DNA from: an uncultured Bacteroidota bacterium
GTDB lineage: Bacteria; Bacteroidota; Bacteroidia; Flavobacteriales; Flavobacteriaceae
Direction of reading: 5' to 3'
DNA: 64,000 nt
Assembly (NCBI GenBank): GCA_902597545.1
Contig: CACJYD010000001.1
Location: 1 to 64,000, forward strand
This document shows positions 7,694 through 15,375 of the stretch, one piece after another (within the stretch, counting starts at the first letter, position 1; each line of letters begins with the position of its first letter). The notes beneath the pieces were generated by a model. The model ran no database searches. It was not told the DNA's origin and saw only the letters and a list, made by a program, of their open reading frames with translations. A program made the position numbers and the translations under genes.

Positions 7694-8170
7694 ATGAGCT
7701 GGTTTGCTGCAAAAACAAAACAAAAAGGAGAATTCAAGGCTTTGAATTATTTTATTTCAATGGGAATAAATTGCTATGTCCCGTCATACGTAACCAAAAG
7801 GGTTTGGTCTGACAGAATTAAAAAGGTTACAGTGCCAGCAATAAGTGGTTACGTGTTTTTTGAACTAACTAAGATTGACTTTGGGCTAATTAATTTAAAT
7901 CCTTTTACAAAAAATATTGTTAGAGGTATTGATGGGTTACCAGCCATTATAAAAAATGAAGAAATAACTAGCCTTAAAGACTATTTTGATGGAAAAATAA
8001 TCGATTGTGATGTAAATTTAATTAAAGGGCAAAGAGTAAAGATAAATAAAGGTCCTTTTATTTTTAAAAAAGGCACAGTAAATAAAATTAGTTACAATAA
8101 AGTAATTATTAGTATTGAATCGATTAATATCAATTTGGTTCTAAACAAGTCTTCTGTTGTAGCTGCATAA
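7694..8170 (+). CDS. UpxY-type NusG-like transcription antiterminator
   Basis: 158-residue NusG paralogue. The N-terminal NGN domain opens with MSWFAAKTKQKGEFKALNYF, followed by CYVPSYVTKRVWSDR and VPAISGYVFFEL; the C-terminus (about 115-150) has a KOW-like segment GQRVKINKGPFIFKKGTVNK. In Bacteroidota such proteins head capsular or exopolysaccharide operons and let RNA polymerase read through the long operon; the position directly upstream of the export genes fits this. It is shorter and more divergent than housekeeping NusG. Confidence 0.88.
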   Translation: MSWFAAKTKQKGEFKALNYFISMGINCYVPSYVTKRVWSDRIKKVTVPAISGYVFFELTKIDFGLINLNPFTKNIVRGIDGLPAIIKNEEITSLKDYFDGKIIDCDVNLIKGQRVKINKGPFIFKKGTVNKISYNKVIISIESININLVLNKSSVVAA

Positions 8171-8217
8171 AATATTAAAAAATGAACATATTAAGATGTG
8201 AGTTTATTGGCGAAGCT

Positions 8218-10587
8218 ATGCGAGTTAAAAATTTTCTCTTTTTCTTTTTGCTATTAATACCATCAATACTTTTTAGTCAGGATATAAATATTCAATCTTT
8301 AAAATCAATGAAGAATGAAGATTTGAAAACATATCTCAATCAGGCACAAAAAGAAGGATACTCATTAGATCAAATAAAAATAATGGCAAAAGCGCAGGGA
8401 ATTTCTGATTTTGAAATAGCTGAATTTGAAAGAAGGGCTACGGCATTAGGATTAAATGAGACGACAAATGATGTATTAACTGAAACTGAAGGTGCCAGCA
8501 CCTCAATGTTTGGGTTAACAGAAATAAGTGAATCTGAAGAAACAATTTCCCCTGAAGAAATTATTTTTGGAGCTTCTTTTTTTAATAATCCTAATATCAG
8601 CTCTGCGCCAAGCTTAAACATAGCAACTCCTGAGTCTTATGAGCTTGGGCCTGGAGATGAATTAGCTATAAGTATTTGGGGGGCTGCACAAAATGAATAT
8701 AATTCTAAAATAACCAGAGAGGGGTATTTAAAAATTGAGAGGATTGGCCCGGTTTATTTGAGTGGGTTGACAATTAGTCAAGCTAAATACAAATTAAAAG
8801 ATAAACTATCTAAAATATATTCAGGATTAAATTCTAACTTCAACAAGGTCTTTTTTGATGTTACGCTACTAAATAGCAGATCTATTATTGTTAGTATTGC
8901 AGGTAACGTTGTTGGTCCTGGTACATACACTCTATCATCTTTAGCTAATCCTTTAAACGCTCTATATGCAGCTGGTGGGCCAAACGAAAATGGAACTTAC
9001 AGAGAAATTGCAGTTATACGAGGAGGAAAGGAAGTTCATTCAATTGATTTGTATGATTATTTTATTAAGGGAGCTTTAAAAAGTTTTTCATTGAGAGATC
9101 AGGATATAATTCTTGTTCCTTCATACAAAAATAGACTCTTTTTGAGTGGAGAATTTAAAACAATTGGAGTATTTGAATTAAAAGACGGTGAATCAATTTC
9201 AGATTTACTGCTTTACAGTGGCGGGATTAGCAGTAAAGGATTAAAGAATCAAGTTTATTTGGAAAGGGTTGATGGGTACTCTAAATCTATATTTACCGTT
9301 GAGAAAAAAGATTTTAAAGAATTTATTTTAAATGACGGTGACACTGTAGAGGCAAGAGAAGTGGGAGATGAAATTAAAAATCTAGTTTCTATTGAGGGAG
9401 CGGTAATGATCCCAGGACGATATGAGTTAAATAAAAACTTAAACGTTAGGTCTCTTATTAAGTCAGCGGGTGGATTTAAAGAGAATGCCTTAAAAACAAG
9501 AGGATATATAATTAGAGAGGTTGATGGATTTCCTCAAGAGGCTAAAACAGTTGACTTAGAAGAAGCTTTAAGTCTCAACCAGAATTACACCTTGAGAAAT
9601 AACGACAAACTTATTATTGCCTCAATTGAAGAGTTATCCGGTTCTAAATCAGTATCTATCAGTGGAGAAATTAATACTAGCGGTGATTATCCTTTTTTTA
9701 AAGGAATGACTTTAATAGATTTGATTTTAATGTCTAGCGGGATTACAGAAAAAGGTTCTTTTAAAAATATTACTATATACCGTTCAACATACGATGAAAC
9801 CCAATTAAGCCCTGTCGAAACAATTAGGGTCTCCTTAAATGAAGGCTACAGCAATTTAAGTTCTGATCAAAATATTGAGCTTCTTGAAAATGACCTTGTT
9901 GTAGTTAGGTCGAAACTTGGTTATCAACCAAAAGAATTTGTTTCTGCCTCTGGTCTTGTTAAAAAACCTGGTAACTATGCCTTAAAGACAAATAATTACT
10001 CTGTTTTTGACTTAATAAAAGATTTTGAAGGCTTTTTGCCAAACGCAGAATTAAATGGTGTAAAACTAAAGCGTAAAGTTGAAGTTGAAGTAATTAATGA
10101 TTTAATTAAGAACATAAACGATACAAACAATGATGAAACAATTGATTTGGATGAATTCATAGAAATAGGTCTAAATATTGACAGAATTATTAAATCCAAT
10201 GGGCTTTTAAATGAGTATAACTTAACGCTGAAACCAGGTGATGAAATAATTGTTCCAAAATCAGATAACTCAATTGAAGTTTCAGGCTCTGTTCAAAAAG
10301 CAACTGCTATGACATACAAGAAGGGCCTAACTACAAGTGCGGCAATAAACGCCGCAGGTGGGTTTGGATTAGACGCAAAAAAATCTCGAGTTTATGTTGT
10401 TTATCAAAATGGAAGTATTAAGAGCACTAAATCTTTTTTAATATTTAGAAAATACCCAAAACTTTTGCCAGGATCAAAAGTGTTTGTTCCAAAAAAAGCC
10501 GAAAACAATAATAAAACCAGTGTGGGAGAAATTGTTGGCTATACAACCAGTTTGGTTTCCATAATAGCCTTAATTAAATCATTATAA
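8218..10587 (+). CDS. SLBB-domain polysaccharide export outer-membrane protein (Wza-like)
   Basis: 789-residue periplasmic/outer-membrane export protein. I choose the ATG at 8218 rather than 8182 because it opens directly into a signal peptide, MRVKNFLFFFLLLIPSILFSQ. After a spacer, the Poly_export domain begins about residue 140 (YELGPGDELAISIWG). Several SLBB domains follow, each with a motif such as GNVVGPGTYTL, GAVMIPGRYEL or SGEINTSGDYPFF. A hydrophobic helix ends the protein. Twice the length of classical Wza, as is common in Bacteroidota. Next gene begins immediately after the stop and encodes its copolymerase partner. Confidence 0.9.
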   Translation: MRVKNFLFFFLLLIPSILFSQDINIQSLKSMKNEDLKTYLNQAQKEGYSLDQIKIMAKAQGISDFEIAEFERRATALGLNETTNDVLTETEGASTSMFGLTEISESEETISPEEIIFGASFFNNPNISSAPSLNIATPESYELGPGDELAISIWGAAQNEYNSKITREGYLKIERIGPVYLSGLTISQAKYKLKDKLSKIYSGLNSNFNKVFFDVTLLNSRSIIVSIAGNVVGPGTYTLSSLANPLNALYAAGGPNENGTYREIAVIRGGKEVHSIDLYDYFIKGALKSFSLRDQDIILVPSYKNRLFLSGEFKTIGVFELKDGESISDLLLYSGGISSKGLKNQVYLERVDGYSKSIFTVEKKDFKEFILNDGDTVEAREVGDEIKNLVSIEGAVMIPGRYELNKNLNVRSLIKSAGGFKENALKTRGYIIREVDGFPQEAKTVDLEEALSLNQNYTLRNNDKLIIASIEELSGSKSVSISGEINTSGDYPFFKGMTLIDLILMSSGITEKGSFKNITIYRSTYDETQLSPVETIRVSLNEGYSNLSSDQNIELLENDLVVVRSKLGYQPKEFVSASGLVKKPGNYALKTNNYSVFDLIKDFEGFLPNAELNGVKLKRKVEVEVINDLIKNINDTNNDETIDLDEFIEIGLNIDRIIKSNGLLNEYNLTLKPGDEIIVPKSDNSIEVSGSVQKATAMTYKKGLTTSAAINAAGGFGLDAKKSRVYVVYQNGSIKSTKSFLIFRKYPKLLPGSKVFVPKKAENNNKTSVGEIVGYTTSLVSIIALIKSL

Positions 10588-11580
10588 ATGGATAATAATT
10601 CCGATGAAATAGACCTAATAGAGCTATTAAAAATAGCTTGGAATGGGAGAAAACAAATAATAATAATATCATTTGTTTTTGTATTGGTTGGTGTTGCTCT
10701 CGCTTTGCTTTCTCCAATTGTTTACACCTCGAGTACAACATTTATTAATAGTCAAACAGAATCTTCTTCAGGTTTAGGATTAAGTGGAGTTGCATCTCTT
10801 GTTGGTGTAAATCTCGGAAGCATGAGCTCTGGAAGTGAAATTCCACCATCAATGTATCCTCAAATAGCAGAAAGTGTACAGTTTAAAAGAGATTTGTTAA
10901 ACAGCTATATCGATGAAAAGGAACAAATTAAGCTTGAAGACTTTTTAGCAAATTACAATGACATTGAAAAGTCACTAACTGAAAATAAAAATAAGTTGTT
11001 TATTTCTGAATATGAAGATAAATTATTTAATGTCATAAATGATGTTATTTCGATTAGTGTAAATCAAAAAGATGGGTTTGTTACAATTTTAGCTAATATG
11101 CCTGAAAGTGAATATGCGGCAAACACATGTATTAATGCAAGAGAAATTTTACAGGAAACTGTTATTAATAATAAGATAAAAAGCGCTAAACAAAAGCTTG
11201 AATACAGCGAAAAGCAGCTAACCTCTAAAAGAATCGAGTTTGAAGAAATACAAAATAAATTGGCTTATTTTAATGACTCTAATTTAAATTTAGTTACTTC
11301 TTCAGTTATAAATGAAAGAGAAAAGCTAGAGGCTGAGTTTCAAATAATTAATGCGGTAATGATTGAGCTATCAAAACAGGTCGAGCAAAGTAAGCTTCAA
11401 GTCAGTGAGGACACCCCTGTTTTTTCTATTGTAAAGGAGGCTAGTATGGCAGTTAAAAGATCCTCACCTAAAAGAACCCAAATGGTCTTAATTTTTGGCT
11501 TTATTGGATTGGTAACTTCAATTTCATATACACTTATTAAAAGTCCTATAGCACAGATTTTAAAAGAAATTAATTCCTAA
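10588..11580 (+). CDS. Wzz-like polysaccharide chain-length protein
   Basis: 330-residue polysaccharide copolymerase. An N-terminal Wzz-type segment (EIDLIELLKIAWNGRK) precedes membrane helix 1 (about 24-46), then a large periplasmic coiled-coil region and helix 2 (about 297-316). Only a short cytoplasmic tail follows; there is no tyrosine-kinase (Wzc) domain. It abuts the export gene without spacing. Its 3' end overlaps the convergent kelch gene by 11 bases. Expected to set chain length or gate export of a surface polysaccharide. Confidence 0.88.
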   Translation: MDNNSDEIDLIELLKIAWNGRKQIIIISFVFVLVGVALALLSPIVYTSSTTFINSQTESSSGLGLSGVASLVGVNLGSMSSGSEIPPSMYPQIAESVQFKRDLLNSYIDEKEQIKLEDFLANYNDIEKSLTENKNKLFISEYEDKLFNVINDVISISVNQKDGFVTILANMPESEYAANTCINAREILQETVINNKIKSAKQKLEYSEKQLTSKRIEFEEIQNKLAYFNDSNLNLVTSSVINEREKLEAEFQIINAVMIELSKQVEQSKLQVSEDTPVFSIVKEASMAVKRSSPKRTQMVLIFGFIGLVTSISYTLIKSPIAQILKEINS

Positions 11581-12967
11581 AAAGAAAAGTAAAAAAACTT
11601 ATTTTTCTCTTAATTATTGAAGAATCAGCCTTGTAAGCTTTTAACCGATTATCCTTAGGTAATTTAGTTTCAATAATACATTTTTCGTTTTTTGTAAGTA
11701 TAAAAAGTTTTTTGTTTAAATCCATAACAAGCTTATTTCTCAAAGACGTGAAGTGTGACTTGGCAAATTGTTGATCAGAAATTATTCGGTTAACTTGAGG
11801 GACTGTAATAAATGGGTTTTCAGATAAATATGATATTAAGGATTGCTCATTACTTGTTATTGAAACAGACTCATTGTTAAAGTAAACCCTATTTTCGTCA
11901 TACAGAATTAAACCTTTAATAAAGTCTTTAAATGAAAACATCTTTAAAATAATCCAAAAAACCAAAGCAATAAAAAACCCAAAAAAAATGTATTGTTCCA
12001 CTGAGATTTCTCTATTCTCAGCTAGTAGTGAAAAGGTTTCAGACTCAAAGTTTTTGTCAATAGATTTTAAATCAAAAAACTTTAAATATTTTGTCCCGTT
12101 AATATTTGAAATATAAAATAATTTTTGACGTTTAATAAAAGTTGGAAACTTATTGTCAATGCCCAAAAAAAAGTTTTTTTGATAGTAGTTGGTTGCTTTA
12201 AGTGTGTTAAAATTAATTATGGTAAGATTATCATTGTCAATTAAAAAAATATTGTCATCAAGCTTTGGTTGTGAAAACAAAGAATATTTAGTTTTAAGCT
12301 TTTTGTTAACATGTCCTAAGCTGATAAATTCTTTGTTTATTAAGTCAAAATAGAAAATATCTGAAAATGATTCATCTTGATTAATTGTTCCCGCAGAACC
12401 AGATCGACCACCAAATACATAAAGCTTATCATCTAATAAATTATATATTGGCTTCCATCTACCTGGTGGTAAATACTTACTATTATTATAAAAAATATCC
12501 CATTGCTTAATATTTTCATCAAAAAATGTAATAAAATTTTTAAATGACCAAAAGCCATATCCACCATATATATGAACTTTGTCTTTGTAAACAAAACGAG
12601 CTCCTCCAAATTGATTTTTATGCAATGTAGAATTATCAATCCTAATAAAATTATTTCCAGATCTTTTAAAAACTGGTCCTGCACCATTGGATATTATGTA
12701 TAAATCATTTCCAACTATTTTAGTAAAAAAATTAGCATGGTTTAATTCATCTATTTCTTTTATTTGTTTTTTAAAAGAATCATCAATGAGTGGAGAATAT
12801 TCCCACTTAGATTTATATTCATATACTCCATTTACAGTAATCAAAATAGGGTTGTTAAATTTAGATTTGGCAAATAAAAAATTTTGAACTGAATCATTAA
12901 CTGGAAGCTGAGATTGAGAATAAACTATTTTAATAGAAATAAGAATAAATAAAAATATTAGTCTCAC
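11570..12967 (-). CDS. Kelch-like propeller, membrane helix and winged-helix-like tail (copy 1)
   Basis: 465 residues from a GTG at 12967, chosen because it opens straight into a signal peptide (MRLIFLFILISIKIVYSQ); the longer reading to a TTG at 13027 would overlap the divergent gene. Residues 20-320 resemble a kelch beta-propeller, with HKNQFGGARFVY (116-127), IYGGYGFW and LYVFGG. A membrane helix lies near 326-344. The 120-residue tail has an OmpR-like winged-helix pattern (SVSITSNEQSLISYLSENP, then SHFTSLRNKLVMDL). Topology would place the propeller in the periplasm and the tail in the cytoplasm. Paralogous to the gene at 14023; both flank the WecA-like gene. A signal-sensing membrane regulator is inferred, not shown. 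Confidence 0.75.
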   Translation of the reverse strand: MRLIFLFILISIKIVYSQSQLPVNDSVQNFLFAKSKFNNPILITVNGVYEYKSKWEYSPLIDDSFKKQIKEIDELNHANFFTKIVGNDLYIISNGAGPVFKRSGNNFIRIDNSTLHKNQFGGARFVYKDKVHIYGGYGFWSFKNFITFFDENIKQWDIFYNNSKYLPPGRWKPIYNLLDDKLYVFGGRSGSAGTINQDESFSDIFYFDLINKEFISLGHVNKKLKTKYSLFSQPKLDDNIFLIDNDNLTIINFNTLKATNYYQKNFFLGIDNKFPTFIKRQKLFYISNINGTKYLKFFDLKSIDKNFESETFSLLAENREISVEQYIFFGFFIALVFWIILKMFSFKDFIKGLILYDENRVYFNNESVSITSNEQSLISYLSENPFITVPQVNRIISDQQFAKSHFTSLRNKLVMDLNKKLFILTKNEKCIIETKLPKDNRLKAYKADSSIIKRKISFFTFLFRN

Positions 12968-12987
12968 ATTTTCTAAAATAATAAATT

Positions 12988-14022
12988 TTGAACTTTGAAT
13001 TAATTTTATTGGAACTTTTGTTTGCAATAATAGGACTTAGCACATCATATTATTTGAATGGATACTTATATGCTGCTTTTAGATCTAATAAAATGTATGA
13101 CCCTATAGTATCTCGCTCTTCACATAATGAAAAAGCTACTAGGTCTGGGGGAATGGCACTCTTTTTTACTTTTTGTATTTGTTATGGTTTAGGAAAGGCC
13201 ATATACTCAATGAGTGTTGATTTGTATGCCTTAATTGCTTGGATTTTTATTGCTCTTACAGGCATGGCAGATGATTTCTTTTCGATAAAGTACAGGGAAA
13301 AGTTCTTTCTTCAGGTTTTTGCAGCTATTGTTATGCTACAGAGCGGTATTTACATCGACTCTTTTCATGGTGTTTTTGGAATTTATGAAATTCCGATTTG
13401 GGCATCATATATTATCTCAATTTTTGTGTTTATTGTAATAGTAAACGCATTTAATCTGATTGATGGAATTGATGGCTTATCTGCTCTTTTATCAATTAAA
13501 TTTTTTCTTTTAGTTGCTGGAATTATAACAATTTCTTCAAAAGAAATGTTCCTAGTAATTCCATCTATTGTTGGTGGTATAACCGGTTTTTTATTTTTTA
13601 ATTTTAACCCTGTAAAAAAGGTTTTTCTTGGGGATACTGGAGCTCTTCTTCTTGGGTCTGTAATTGCGTTCTTCATTTTTTATATTCTAAATTCAAATAG
13701 TTATATAATTACAGATGACTTTATTTCAAGACCTTTAATGGTAATTTTACTAATTATCTACCCTCTTGCAGATACTTTAAGGGCATCATTAATAAGAATG
13801 TATAAAGGCAAATCTCCATTTCTAGCAGACAGAGTACATTTACATCATAGACTAATAGATAAAGGCTACAGCCACTGGGGAGCGTCATCTTTAATATTAG
13901 GTCTGTCTATCACTGTGGTAATGGTAGGAGTATTTGTTTCTTCATTATCAATAAGTCTAACGGCTTGCTCACTCATCATATTAGTTTATTTAGCTATACT
14001 TTATTACATATTCTTTAATTAA
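12988..14022 (+). CDS. WecA/TagO-like undecaprenyl-phosphate sugar-1-phosphate transferase
   Basis: Up to 344 residues, multi-pass membrane enzyme of the MraY/WecA family that starts glycan assembly by moving a sugar-1-phosphate (often GlcNAc) to undecaprenyl phosphate. Family motifs are all visible: GMADDFFSIKYR, FNLIDGIDGLSA, VFLGDTGALLLG and the cytosolic HLHHRL loop. The start is uncertain: TTG codons at 12988, 13009 and 13018 are candidates and no ATG precedes the first membrane helix. It lies 20 bases from the divergent kelch gene and is followed with no gap by the second kelch gene, so it likely shares an mRNA with it. Confidence 0.9.
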   Translation: MNFELILLELLFAIIGLSTSYYLNGYLYAAFRSNKMYDPIVSRSSHNEKATRSGGMALFFTFCICYGLGKAIYSMSVDLYALIAWIFIALTGMADDFFSIKYREKFFLQVFAAIVMLQSGIYIDSFHGVFGIYEIPIWASYIISIFVFIVIVNAFNLIDGIDGLSALLSIKFFLLVAGIITISSKEMFLVIPSIVGGITGFLFFNFNPVKKVFLGDTGALLLGSVIAFFIFYILNSNSYIITDDFISRPLMVILLIIYPLADTLRASLIRMYKGKSPFLADRVHLHHRLIDKGYSHWGASSLILGLSITVVMVGVFVSSLSISLTACSLIILVYLAILYYIFFN

Positions 14023-15375
14023 ATGAAAAATTTAATTCTGTTTTTATTTTTATCATGGGCTTCATTTTCTCAGACAATAGAAAACGATGATTATTTGATT
14101 ATTGAAGGTGAAAGCTCAAAATACTTTTATATTTTAACTAAAGATGGATATTATATTTCAGAGCTGGCAGGTAAGATTACTTTTAAAGAATACACAAAAG
14201 AAATTCCAAAATCTTTAAATGTCCCTGTAAGCACTTTAATTCCACTATTACACAACTCCCAAACATATCTTTTATATCCTGGTGGAGGGCTATTATACAC
14301 TTTTTCTGATGGGTCTATTAGTAGAATTGACAGGTCATTCCCTCACAGAAATCAATATGGCGCTTATTTCTTCTCTTACAAAGAGAATGTTTTCTTAATT
14401 GGCGGCTATGGATATTGGCAAACAAAATCGATAATAACAAAATTTAACTTTAATAGCGGAGATTGGGAATTAGTTAACACTAAGGGTCAGCAACCTGTTG
14501 GTATTGACCAAGGAACATATTTTATTGAAGACAATAAGCTTTATGTGTTTGACTTTGTGTCTAGGGAAATCAATACCCAAAAAGAAAAAAGAAATGAGAA
14601 TCTTTATGTTTTGGATTTAGATAGTTTTGAATGGAAAAAACTCGGTGTAATTAATGACACTGTTGATTTAATTAATGTAAAAAATAAAGGCGTGAAGCGC
14701 TTCTTTAAGTTTGAGGATAAATTAATTTTTAGCTATTCAAATAATCCAGGCTTTTTTTTAGTAGACATACAAAATAATTCTTTTCAGAGCTTTAAAGATG
14801 AAATATTATTTTATAAATCTGATAACCAATTTATAATCAAAAATAATCGCCTGATAGGCCCAATTAAAAACACATTGACAGGTGAATCAGCATTTGAAAA
14901 ATTTGACTTAACTAATATTACCAATTACCCTATTGATGAAGTATCCTATTTTTTTAGAGATAAAGAAGAGTTTTTTCAATATGTATATTTTGCTTTGTTC
15001 TTTCTCATAGTTCTAATAATAATATTAAGCTTATATTATAAAAGGATAGCTCAAACGTATATAATTGATGAAAGCTCTATTTCAATTTCTGGTGTATCTC
15101 ACAAATTATTGCCAATTGAAATAAGTATACTGACTTTATTTTCTAAAGACAAAAAAGTTTTAAACTCTAAATTGATGGAGCTGTTTGTGAGAGATGATAA
15201 AACAAAAGATTATGCTGTAAAAAGAAAAAATAAGACTCTTGCTGCACTTAAAACTAAGCTCTTTAACCTTTATAACATTAGTTTTATTGAAAAACAAAAA
15301 TCTAAAGGTGATTCGAGACATCTAACTTATTTATTGAACAAAAAAATTAGAATAATTCAAGAAACTATTGATTAA
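14023..15375 (+). CDS. Kelch-like propeller, membrane helix and winged-helix-like tail (copy 2)
   Basis: 450 residues with the same architecture as the gene at 11570: signal peptide 1-17 (MKNLILFLFLSWASFSQ), a kelch-like periplasmic region including HRNQYGAYFFSY (108-119) and GGYGYW (127-132), one membrane helix near 319-339, and a cytoplasmic tail (346-450). The tail has a strand pair (SISISGVSHKLLPIE), a helix (ISILTLFSKDKK) and a basic second helix ending TLAALKTKLF, resembling an OmpR-type winged helix. It starts directly after the WecA-like stop. Its 3' end overlaps the convergent GH3-like gene by 11 bases. Regulatory role is inferred. Confidence 0.78.
   Translation: MKNLILFLFLSWASFSQTIENDDYLIIEGESSKYFYILTKDGYYISELAGKITFKEYTKEIPKSLNVPVSTLIPLLHNSQTYLLYPGGGLLYTFSDGSISRIDRSFPHRNQYGAYFFSYKENVFLIGGYGYWQTKSIITKFNFNSGDWELVNTKGQQPVGIDQGTYFIEDNKLYVFDFVSREINTQKEKRNENLYVLDLDSFEWKKLGVINDTVDLINVKNKGVKRFFKFEDKLIFSYSNNPGFFLVDIQNNSFQSFKDEILFYKSDNQFIIKNNRLIGPIKNTLTGESAFEKFDLTNITNYPIDEVSYFFRDKEEFFQYVYFALFFLIVLIIILSLYYKRIAQTYIIDESSISISGVSHKLLPIEISILTLFSKDKKVLNSKLMELFVRDDKTKDYAVKRKNKTLAALKTKLFNLYNISFIEKQKSKGDSRHLTYLLNKKIRIIQETID

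Follow-up and report, generated by a model that had tools for sequence, protein, structure and literature searches.

Kelch-propeller membrane proteins with a winged-helix tail as candidate regulators of an adjoining wecA-like gene in Flavobacteriaceae

The subject of this report is a group of three adjoining genes in the window, a stretch of 64,000 nucleotides from an uncultured bacterium of the Flavobacteriaceae (positions 1 to 64,000 of contig CACJYD010000001.1, assembly GCA_902597545.1). The middle gene encodes a WecA-like sugar-phosphate transferase. It lies between kelA and kelB, whose products consist of a signal peptide, a kelch propeller, one transmembrane (TM) helix and a C-terminal tail modelled as a winged helix. 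An earlier note on this DNA had described the two Kel genes as paralogues that bracket a WecA-like gene, one copy abutting and co-oriented with it and the other divergent; the gene calls, the match of the middle gene to PF00953 and the alignment of KelA with KelB bear out both the coordinates and the paralogy. The features are as follows.

11570..12967, minus strand: kelA, 465 amino acids (aa), with signal peptide, kelch propeller (about residues 31-313), TM helix (323-351) and predicted winged-helix tail (about 360-447)
11573..11929, minus strand: predicted cytoplasmic winged-helix region (tail) of KelA, residues 347-465, from the alignment and predicted secondary structure
12968..12987, no strand: 20 bp separating the starts of the divergent genes kelA and wecA, presumed to be a common regulatory region
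12988..14022, plus strand: wecA-like gene for an undecaprenyl-phosphate sugar-phosphate transferase, with a TTG start (PF00953, E 3.8e-31; TIGR02380, E 3.8e-35, below cut-off)
14023..15375, plus strand: kelB, 450 aa, with signal peptide, kelch propeller, TM helix (about 317-335) and predicted winged-helix tail (339-450)
15037..15372, plus strand: predicted cytoplasmic tail of KelB, modelled alone as an OmpR/CadC-type winged helix with a MarR-like wing

KelA and KelB are 34% identical over 132 propeller residues (E 2e-17, a single pairwise comparison). Their alignment takes in HKNQFG/HRNQYG and GGYGFW/GGYGYW, the two motifs of the common signature HxNQ(F/Y)G ... GGYG(F/Y)W that had been noticed earlier. 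In the organism's own genome, a 1.43-Mb assembly that is 85% complete, a KelA query at E ≤ 1 matches KelA and KelB only. KelA starts with a GTG at 12967, a position kept in close relatives as GTG or ATG, and the gap between kelA and wecA is 16–39 bp in most relatives. KelB starts with an ATG at 14023, immediately past the wecA stop codon.

The mean predicted local distance difference test (pLDDT) score of the full KelA model is 90.2. An N-terminal helix at residues 2–15 is followed by the propeller strands, the membrane helix and a compact tail of strands and helices, within the limits given above. By strand count the modelled propeller has six blades. Both the motif and the fold of kelch proteins are present: PF07646 matches KelA at E 4.3e-8, above its Pfam cut-off, Foldseek finds kelch propellers at 1.4e-11, and VIA-align 2 matches KLHDC3 with a Z of 19.2 over 276 residues. 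At E ≤ 1, Pfam matches KelA and KelB solely to kelch-type models and to one sialate-epimerase propeller model.

The topology was examined across 105 family members, of which 104 have a short hydrophobic stretch at the N terminus (11 of 630 background windows) and 89 a signal-peptidase-like site followed by glutamine (93 of 840 background windows). Since cleavage by signal peptidase in Bacteroidota exposes a glutamine as a rule (PMC5837995), a glutamine behind the predicted cleavage site is as expected. A single membrane segment in the second half of the protein is found in 103 of the 105. The signal-like N terminus, the glutamine site and the one membrane segment make a periplasmic propeller and a cytoplasmic tail the most likely topology. 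Tails carry a median net charge of +8 (range −2 to 16), compared to −1 for the propeller. These counts and the predicted models agree with the unusual order of parts, from signal peptide to winged-helix tail, that the earlier note had proposed.

When residues 339–450 of KelB were folded alone with 84 related tails, the pLDDT was 91.7 and the order of elements b-b-b-a-b-a-a-b-b-b. VIA-align 2, with 997 chains re-aligned to this model, is led by DNA-binding domains of the OmpR/CadC/ToxR class: CadC (Z 9.5, 92 residues, root-mean-square deviation 2.6), CovR (9.4), AdeR (9.2) and ToxR (8.7, root-mean-square deviation 3.2), along with CosR, NsrR and SaeR; 51 of the 997 chains reach a Z of at least 8. 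Rows within 1 Z unit are tied, so the result is the class of fold and not CadC itself. In Foldseek the tail rows, mostly at E 0.003–0.1, are MarR proteins and BaeR, and cullin and FOXO1 occur among them too, for which reason coverage and Z from VIA-align 2 were preferred. On the strength of the model, we are confident in assigning the KelB tail to the winged helices of the OmpR/CadC/ToxR fold class. The winged helix seen in the earlier note thus stands, with profiles agreeing more weakly than structures; the tail limits given there (353–425 and 346–424) fall short of the wing.

The profile comparisons are these. Among the 33 matches of the tail profile to PDB sequences at E ≤ 10, 25 are winged-helix regulators, several of them copies of one protein, and no more than two fall under 0.01, namely AdcR (1.6e-4; best stretch 0.015) and HP1043 (0.009). 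The other eight are gp120, which was treated as chance. The hhalign probability of the tail profile is 78.5 against the OmpR-type domains of relatives (42 columns) and 47.8 against the relatives' MarR proteins, compared to 0.15, 0.33 and 1.5 for three unrelated profiles and 0.36 for OmpR against MarR. The OmpR match spans the first half of the tail, and the MarR match reaches across the wing. There a MarR-like D-x-R motif is found in 85 of 85 aligned tails and in 93 of 95 tails collected outside the window; of the two exceptions, one ends before the motif (L071) and the other is without it (L074). Conservation of tail and propeller is 46.5% vs. 41.1% for KelA and 39.4% vs. 42.2% for KelB. In a distant member (L132, 8436-9965) the tail region has a weak hit, under the cut-off, to DUF6377 (E 1.3e-4), which may connect the family with a further domain of Bacteroidota.

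Relatives were collected by scanning bacterial and archaeal genomes with the pattern [LIV][YFH]x[YIL]GGYG[FY]W, which gave 229 stretches, 210 of these being relatives, and the best make up a set of 79 loci. The scan loci carry Bacteroidota names except for two bins, L045 (Euryarchaeota) and L087 (Marinimicrobia); their Kel genes group among flavobacterial ones, and the contigs are probably misbinned. In a phylum sample of 395 genomes the whole profile, scored on up to four candidates per genome, matches in 29 at E ≤ 1e-8, the organism's own included. Loci were taken from 20 of the 28 others, and the tail is present in 15 of these loci. The tail profile alone, scored on up to 11 candidates per genome, has 17 matches in 15 of the 395 genomes, again with its own. 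All 17 also fit the kelch profile over the propeller, which indicates a real family, and the tail seems to be private to the kelch sensor in these sequences, the tail profile itself being derived from kelch proteins. In one locus (L050, 7531-8934) kelA is broken into three reading frames beside a kelB with a single open frame, either a pseudogene or an assembly error.

The gene order around wecA is strongly conserved in part of the family. A wecA gene is present in the DNA examined in 35 of the 79 loci, within 150 bp of Kel in 34 and at 985 bp in L082. Loci L039 to L061 have the same arrangement as the window. Twenty loci show the DNA on both sides of wecA, and in every one of them kelA is head-to-head with wecA and kelB co-directional behind it; L040, L057 and L059 end inside wecA and are not in this count. 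Such recurrence makes the arrangement more than chance. In the remaining 56 loci, wecA is adjacent in 11 and head-to-head in all 11, one of which (L080) belongs to the KelA branch, is cut, and may be a pair. When restricted to Kel open reading frames flanked on either side by 1 kb or more, wecA is adjacent in 8 of 43. More varied placements are seen in other loci: Kel and wecA are head-to-head in L128, tail-to-tail beside a Wzc locus in L123, 3 kb apart in L121, and co-directional in L130, with Kel 86 bp upstream.

In the window the Kel genes follow three genes related to polysaccharide export.

7694..8170, plus strand: upxY-like (NusG-family) antiterminator gene, at the start of the locus (NF033644, E 2.6e-23, below cut-off)
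8182..10587, plus strand: wza-like gene for an outer-membrane polysaccharide export protein with SLBB domains (PF02563, E 8.8e-16; PF22461, E 1e-40)
10588..11580, plus strand: wzz-like gene for a chain-length protein of 330 aa (PF02706, E 6.9e-10)

At 330 aa the wzz-like protein is too short to be a Wzc kinase. The convergent genes wzz and kelA share 11 bp at their 3′ ends (11570-11580), an overlap also present in L041-L045, L051 and others. As kelA lies on the opposite strand between wzz and wecA, transcription that starts at upxY and runs on past wzz would yield RNA antisense to the whole of kelA. In six loci (L039, L046, L048, L049, L058 and L060) wza and wzz are lacking between upxY and kelA, and kelA-wecA-kelB is intact.

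A single locus suggests that the kelA/kelB pair follows the initiating step and not the WecA family. In L079 (5121-8639), kelA and kelB stand head-to-head after upxY-wza-wzz with no wecA, and 31 bp behind kelB is a gene for a Bac_transf sugar transferase (PF02397, E 7.1e-47). Bac_transf proteins are the second known kind of initiating transferase. In the tree the two L079 genes, on long branches, are basal in the A and B groups. Here one type of transferase may have been exchanged for another while the regulators stayed the same. A profile of the L079 gene run over the open reading frames of L039-L148 found four more Bac_transf genes, none replacing wecA beside Kel: one lies behind wecA (L073), one 4.7 kb from Kel (L109), one in a locus with no Kel (L119) and one several genes off (L123).

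Among 22 other genomes of the genus, Kel is present in 10 and wecA in 13, including all 10. Nine show neither, which means little because these genomes are 55–77% complete. The locus is of another kind in the three congeners with wecA and no Kel. Two of them carry a Wzc kinase and a CpsB-like phosphatase, and in L118 (4803-9052) and L119 (5017-9324) wecA lies beside the Wzc-type tyrosine kinase with the phosphatase gene convergent, an arrangement in which control of this step follows a different logic. In the third (L120, 6975-7499) a gene of 174 residues occupies the place that kelA has elsewhere, head-to-head with wecA; its product matches only weak helix-turn-helix (HTH) models, the best at E 0.013. 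No capsule tyrosine kinase was found in 12 wecA-bearing Kel genomes (the organism's own, the 10 congeners and G026), so that the kinase and phosphatase are present in 0 of 12 genomes with Kel vs. 2 of 3 without (G007, G010 and G021; Fisher p 0.029). Exclusion of Wzc by Kel is not general, because L123 and L130 carry both, and a replacement of BY-kinase control by Kel is not claimed.

With an architecture, topology, fold and conserved gene order evident from sequence or model, we consider it probable, if well short of certain, that KelA and KelB work in the inner membrane as one-component regulators of transcription and act through the C-terminal winged helix on the gene of the adjacent initiating transferase. 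The steps, from ligand to direction of control, are ones that we infer. After cleavage of the signal peptide, the periplasmic kelch propeller would serve as the sensor, joined by one membrane helix to a cytoplasmic winged helix that would grip DNA. A periplasmic signal would alter the membrane-bound regulator and change the hold of its tail on the short divergent kelA-wecA region; acting from there, Kel would probably also control its own expression. The target in this lineage would be the adjoining initiating transferase gene, here wecA, the step that would commit a lipid-linked sugar to surface-glycan synthesis. The likely signal would be the state of the envelope or glycan in the periplasm, where lipid-linked glycan is handled after flipping and where Wza and Wzz act. 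The suggestion of the earlier note that Kel may sense glycan and act directly on transcription is plausible. That two paralogues have been kept together suggests that they probably act jointly, as a heterodimer or through opposing signals.

A number of observations count against regulation of the transferase gene by Kel. The 79-locus set leans to KelB relatives because the best-scoring loci were chosen. A stricter 19-residue window passes only 34 of 105 N termini, and lysines and arginines are more numerous after than before the membrane helix in just 81 of 105, which speaks less strongly for the topology. At E ≤ 1 Pfam finds no DNA-binding or HTH model in KelA or KelB; few of 85 tails match such models, and those weakly (best 1.2e-4, with 25 families listed). 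The commonest Pfam match of these tails at that threshold is SarA/Rot, in nine, and the MarR model is matched by two of the 85; Trans_reg_C (PF00486) is absent both from the KelA and KelB hits and from the 25 families. Foldseek gives no match to the tail at E ≤ 0.001, the best being 3.4e-3. In an alignment of the kelA-wecA junction from 21 loci, the window included, the gap is AT-rich, with few TANNTTTG sites and none in common, and the comparison yielded neither a known promoter nor a conserved operator. TANNTTTG is a promoter element of Bacteroidota.

Distribution adds to these points. wecA was not seen in 44 of the 79 loci, some of them cut close to Kel, and is lacking in 14 of the 15 tail-bearing loci of the phylum sample; the link to wecA is therefore limited to certain lineages. 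The association with polysaccharide loci suggested in the earlier note stands for the marine clade, with wecA in 20 of 20 loci and Bac_transf in L079, but was not seen in these other loci. Where wecA is absent, the neighbours include genes for a TonB-dependent receptor, a sulfatase, outer-membrane and surface proteins, a helicase and a DNA methylase, and phenylacetate genes. For the Kel open reading frames of loci that lack wecA, the upstream neighbour is divergent in 22 cases, co-directional in 18 and not visible in six, and a rule of divergent regulation for the whole family was dropped. On the tree, labelled as adjacent vs. not adjacent with eight rows of unsure flank left out, the wecA-adjacent label needs five changes (shuffled mean 31.7), of which starred branches force two. 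Repeated gain of the link is not taken as shown, since with just two forced changes an old association with losses fits equally well. Four similar Chitinophagales-like loci (L111-L114) have Kel by a DUF47/PhoU-like gene and a TonB-dependent receptor, a candidate regulon; their neighbours were assigned by cluster, with Pfam run on L111 alone.

Much of this would also be expected if the Kel proteins are regulators for which the transferase is merely a neighbour, with main targets elsewhere, such as upxY or other envelope genes, and a gene order due to shared ancestry in compact genomes. The varied neighbours of many Kel members, the 44 loci in which wecA is unseen, the two forced label changes, and the pair in L079 that stays by upxY-wza-wzz without wecA all favour this account. 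We hold it to be unlikely, but still the strongest of the alternatives: kelA-wecA-kelB persists in the six loci that lack wza and wzz, the L079 pair has a Bac_transf transferase adjoining kelB, and all 11 other wecA-adjacent loci are head-to-head.

Winged helices can also bind proteins, and the tail may be a docking domain by which Kel, at the membrane, directly controls WecA itself or the export machine. That neither KelA nor KelB has a DNA-binding match in Pfam, that Kel lies in the membrane as WecA does, and that kelB abuts or overlaps wecA are consistent with such a role. It is rendered improbable by the nearest folds, which are transcription-factor domains, by the positive charge of the tail compared to the propeller, and by retention of the tail in loci where wecA, wza and wzz were not found. 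Some kelch propellers are enzymes, and KelA has a weak Pfam match to N-acetylneuraminate epimerase (E 0.083), but a propeller acting as an enzyme or a structural export part with a vestigial tail is very hard to reconcile with a D-x-R motif retained in nearly all collected tails and a tail conserved nearly like the propeller.

If the Kel proteins are regulators, their closest counterparts can be sought among known membrane-bound ones. SusR-like regulators (SusR, BT3705), reported to be unique to Bacteroidetes, are membrane proteins that sense in the periplasm, carry their DNA-binding domain in the cytoplasm at the C terminus and are related to glycans (PMC3878776). The predicted topology of Kel has this layout, compared by description and not by sequence. 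SusR binds maltose and serves starch use, whereas Kel has a kelch propeller and here adjoins a gene of synthesis; the C-terminal domain of SusR is a putative HTH otherwise like no known DNA-binding domain (PMC3878776), in contrast to the OmpR/CadC-type winged helix of Kel. ToxR and CadC resemble Kel in being one-component regulators with a single membrane helix, a sensor outside and the same class of winged helix inside (PMC5936718), the last seen for Kel in the predicted model only. The DNA-binding domain is N-terminal in the ToxR family and C-terminal in Kel, after signal peptide, propeller and TM helix; domain order is among the features that define that family (PMC5936718), and because its order is reversed Kel is not a member.

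The tail shares its fold and element order with the OmpR/PhoB-type DNA-binding domain (Trans_reg_C), at the profile probability of 78.5 given above, but Kel has no receiver domain, lacks a PF00486 hit in KelA and KelB, and carries the MarR-style D-x-R wing. Hybrid two-component systems and other transmembrane regulators, which are enriched in Bacteroidota, likewise combine a sensor with a DNA-binding domain in a single membrane protein (PMC10269533); unlike the hybrid systems, Kel is devoid of kinase and receiver domains in Pfam. The word kelch is absent from the main text of that census, as far as it is available, and a search of the open PMC literature found no description of membrane regulators with kelch and winged helix or of kelch proteins beside wecA. 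The earlier note had held that the ToxR/CadC layout is inverted and had recognised no described system of the kind. The inversion stands, and the pairing of kelch with winged helix was not found in that literature; the order of parts is not unique, since SusR shares it (PMC3878776).

A broader proposal is put forward more tentatively, as possible but doubtful: a Bacteroidota-wide family would couple a kelch propeller to transcription, and in marine Flavobacteriaceae KelA/KelB would read exported or lipid-linked glycan and feed back on the adjacent WecA or Bac_transf transferase, without the usual tyrosine-kinase control. The family has probably been overlooked because its winged-helix output fits no Pfam DNA-binding model well. 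If the proposed function is correct, it would add a pairing of sensor and output to the transmembrane transcription regulators, one that Pfam-based surveys would probably miss, and would give a testable account of control over the first step of surface-glycan synthesis in streamlined marine Bacteroidota. The Kel module beside other envelope genes would be an entry point to new periplasmic signals.

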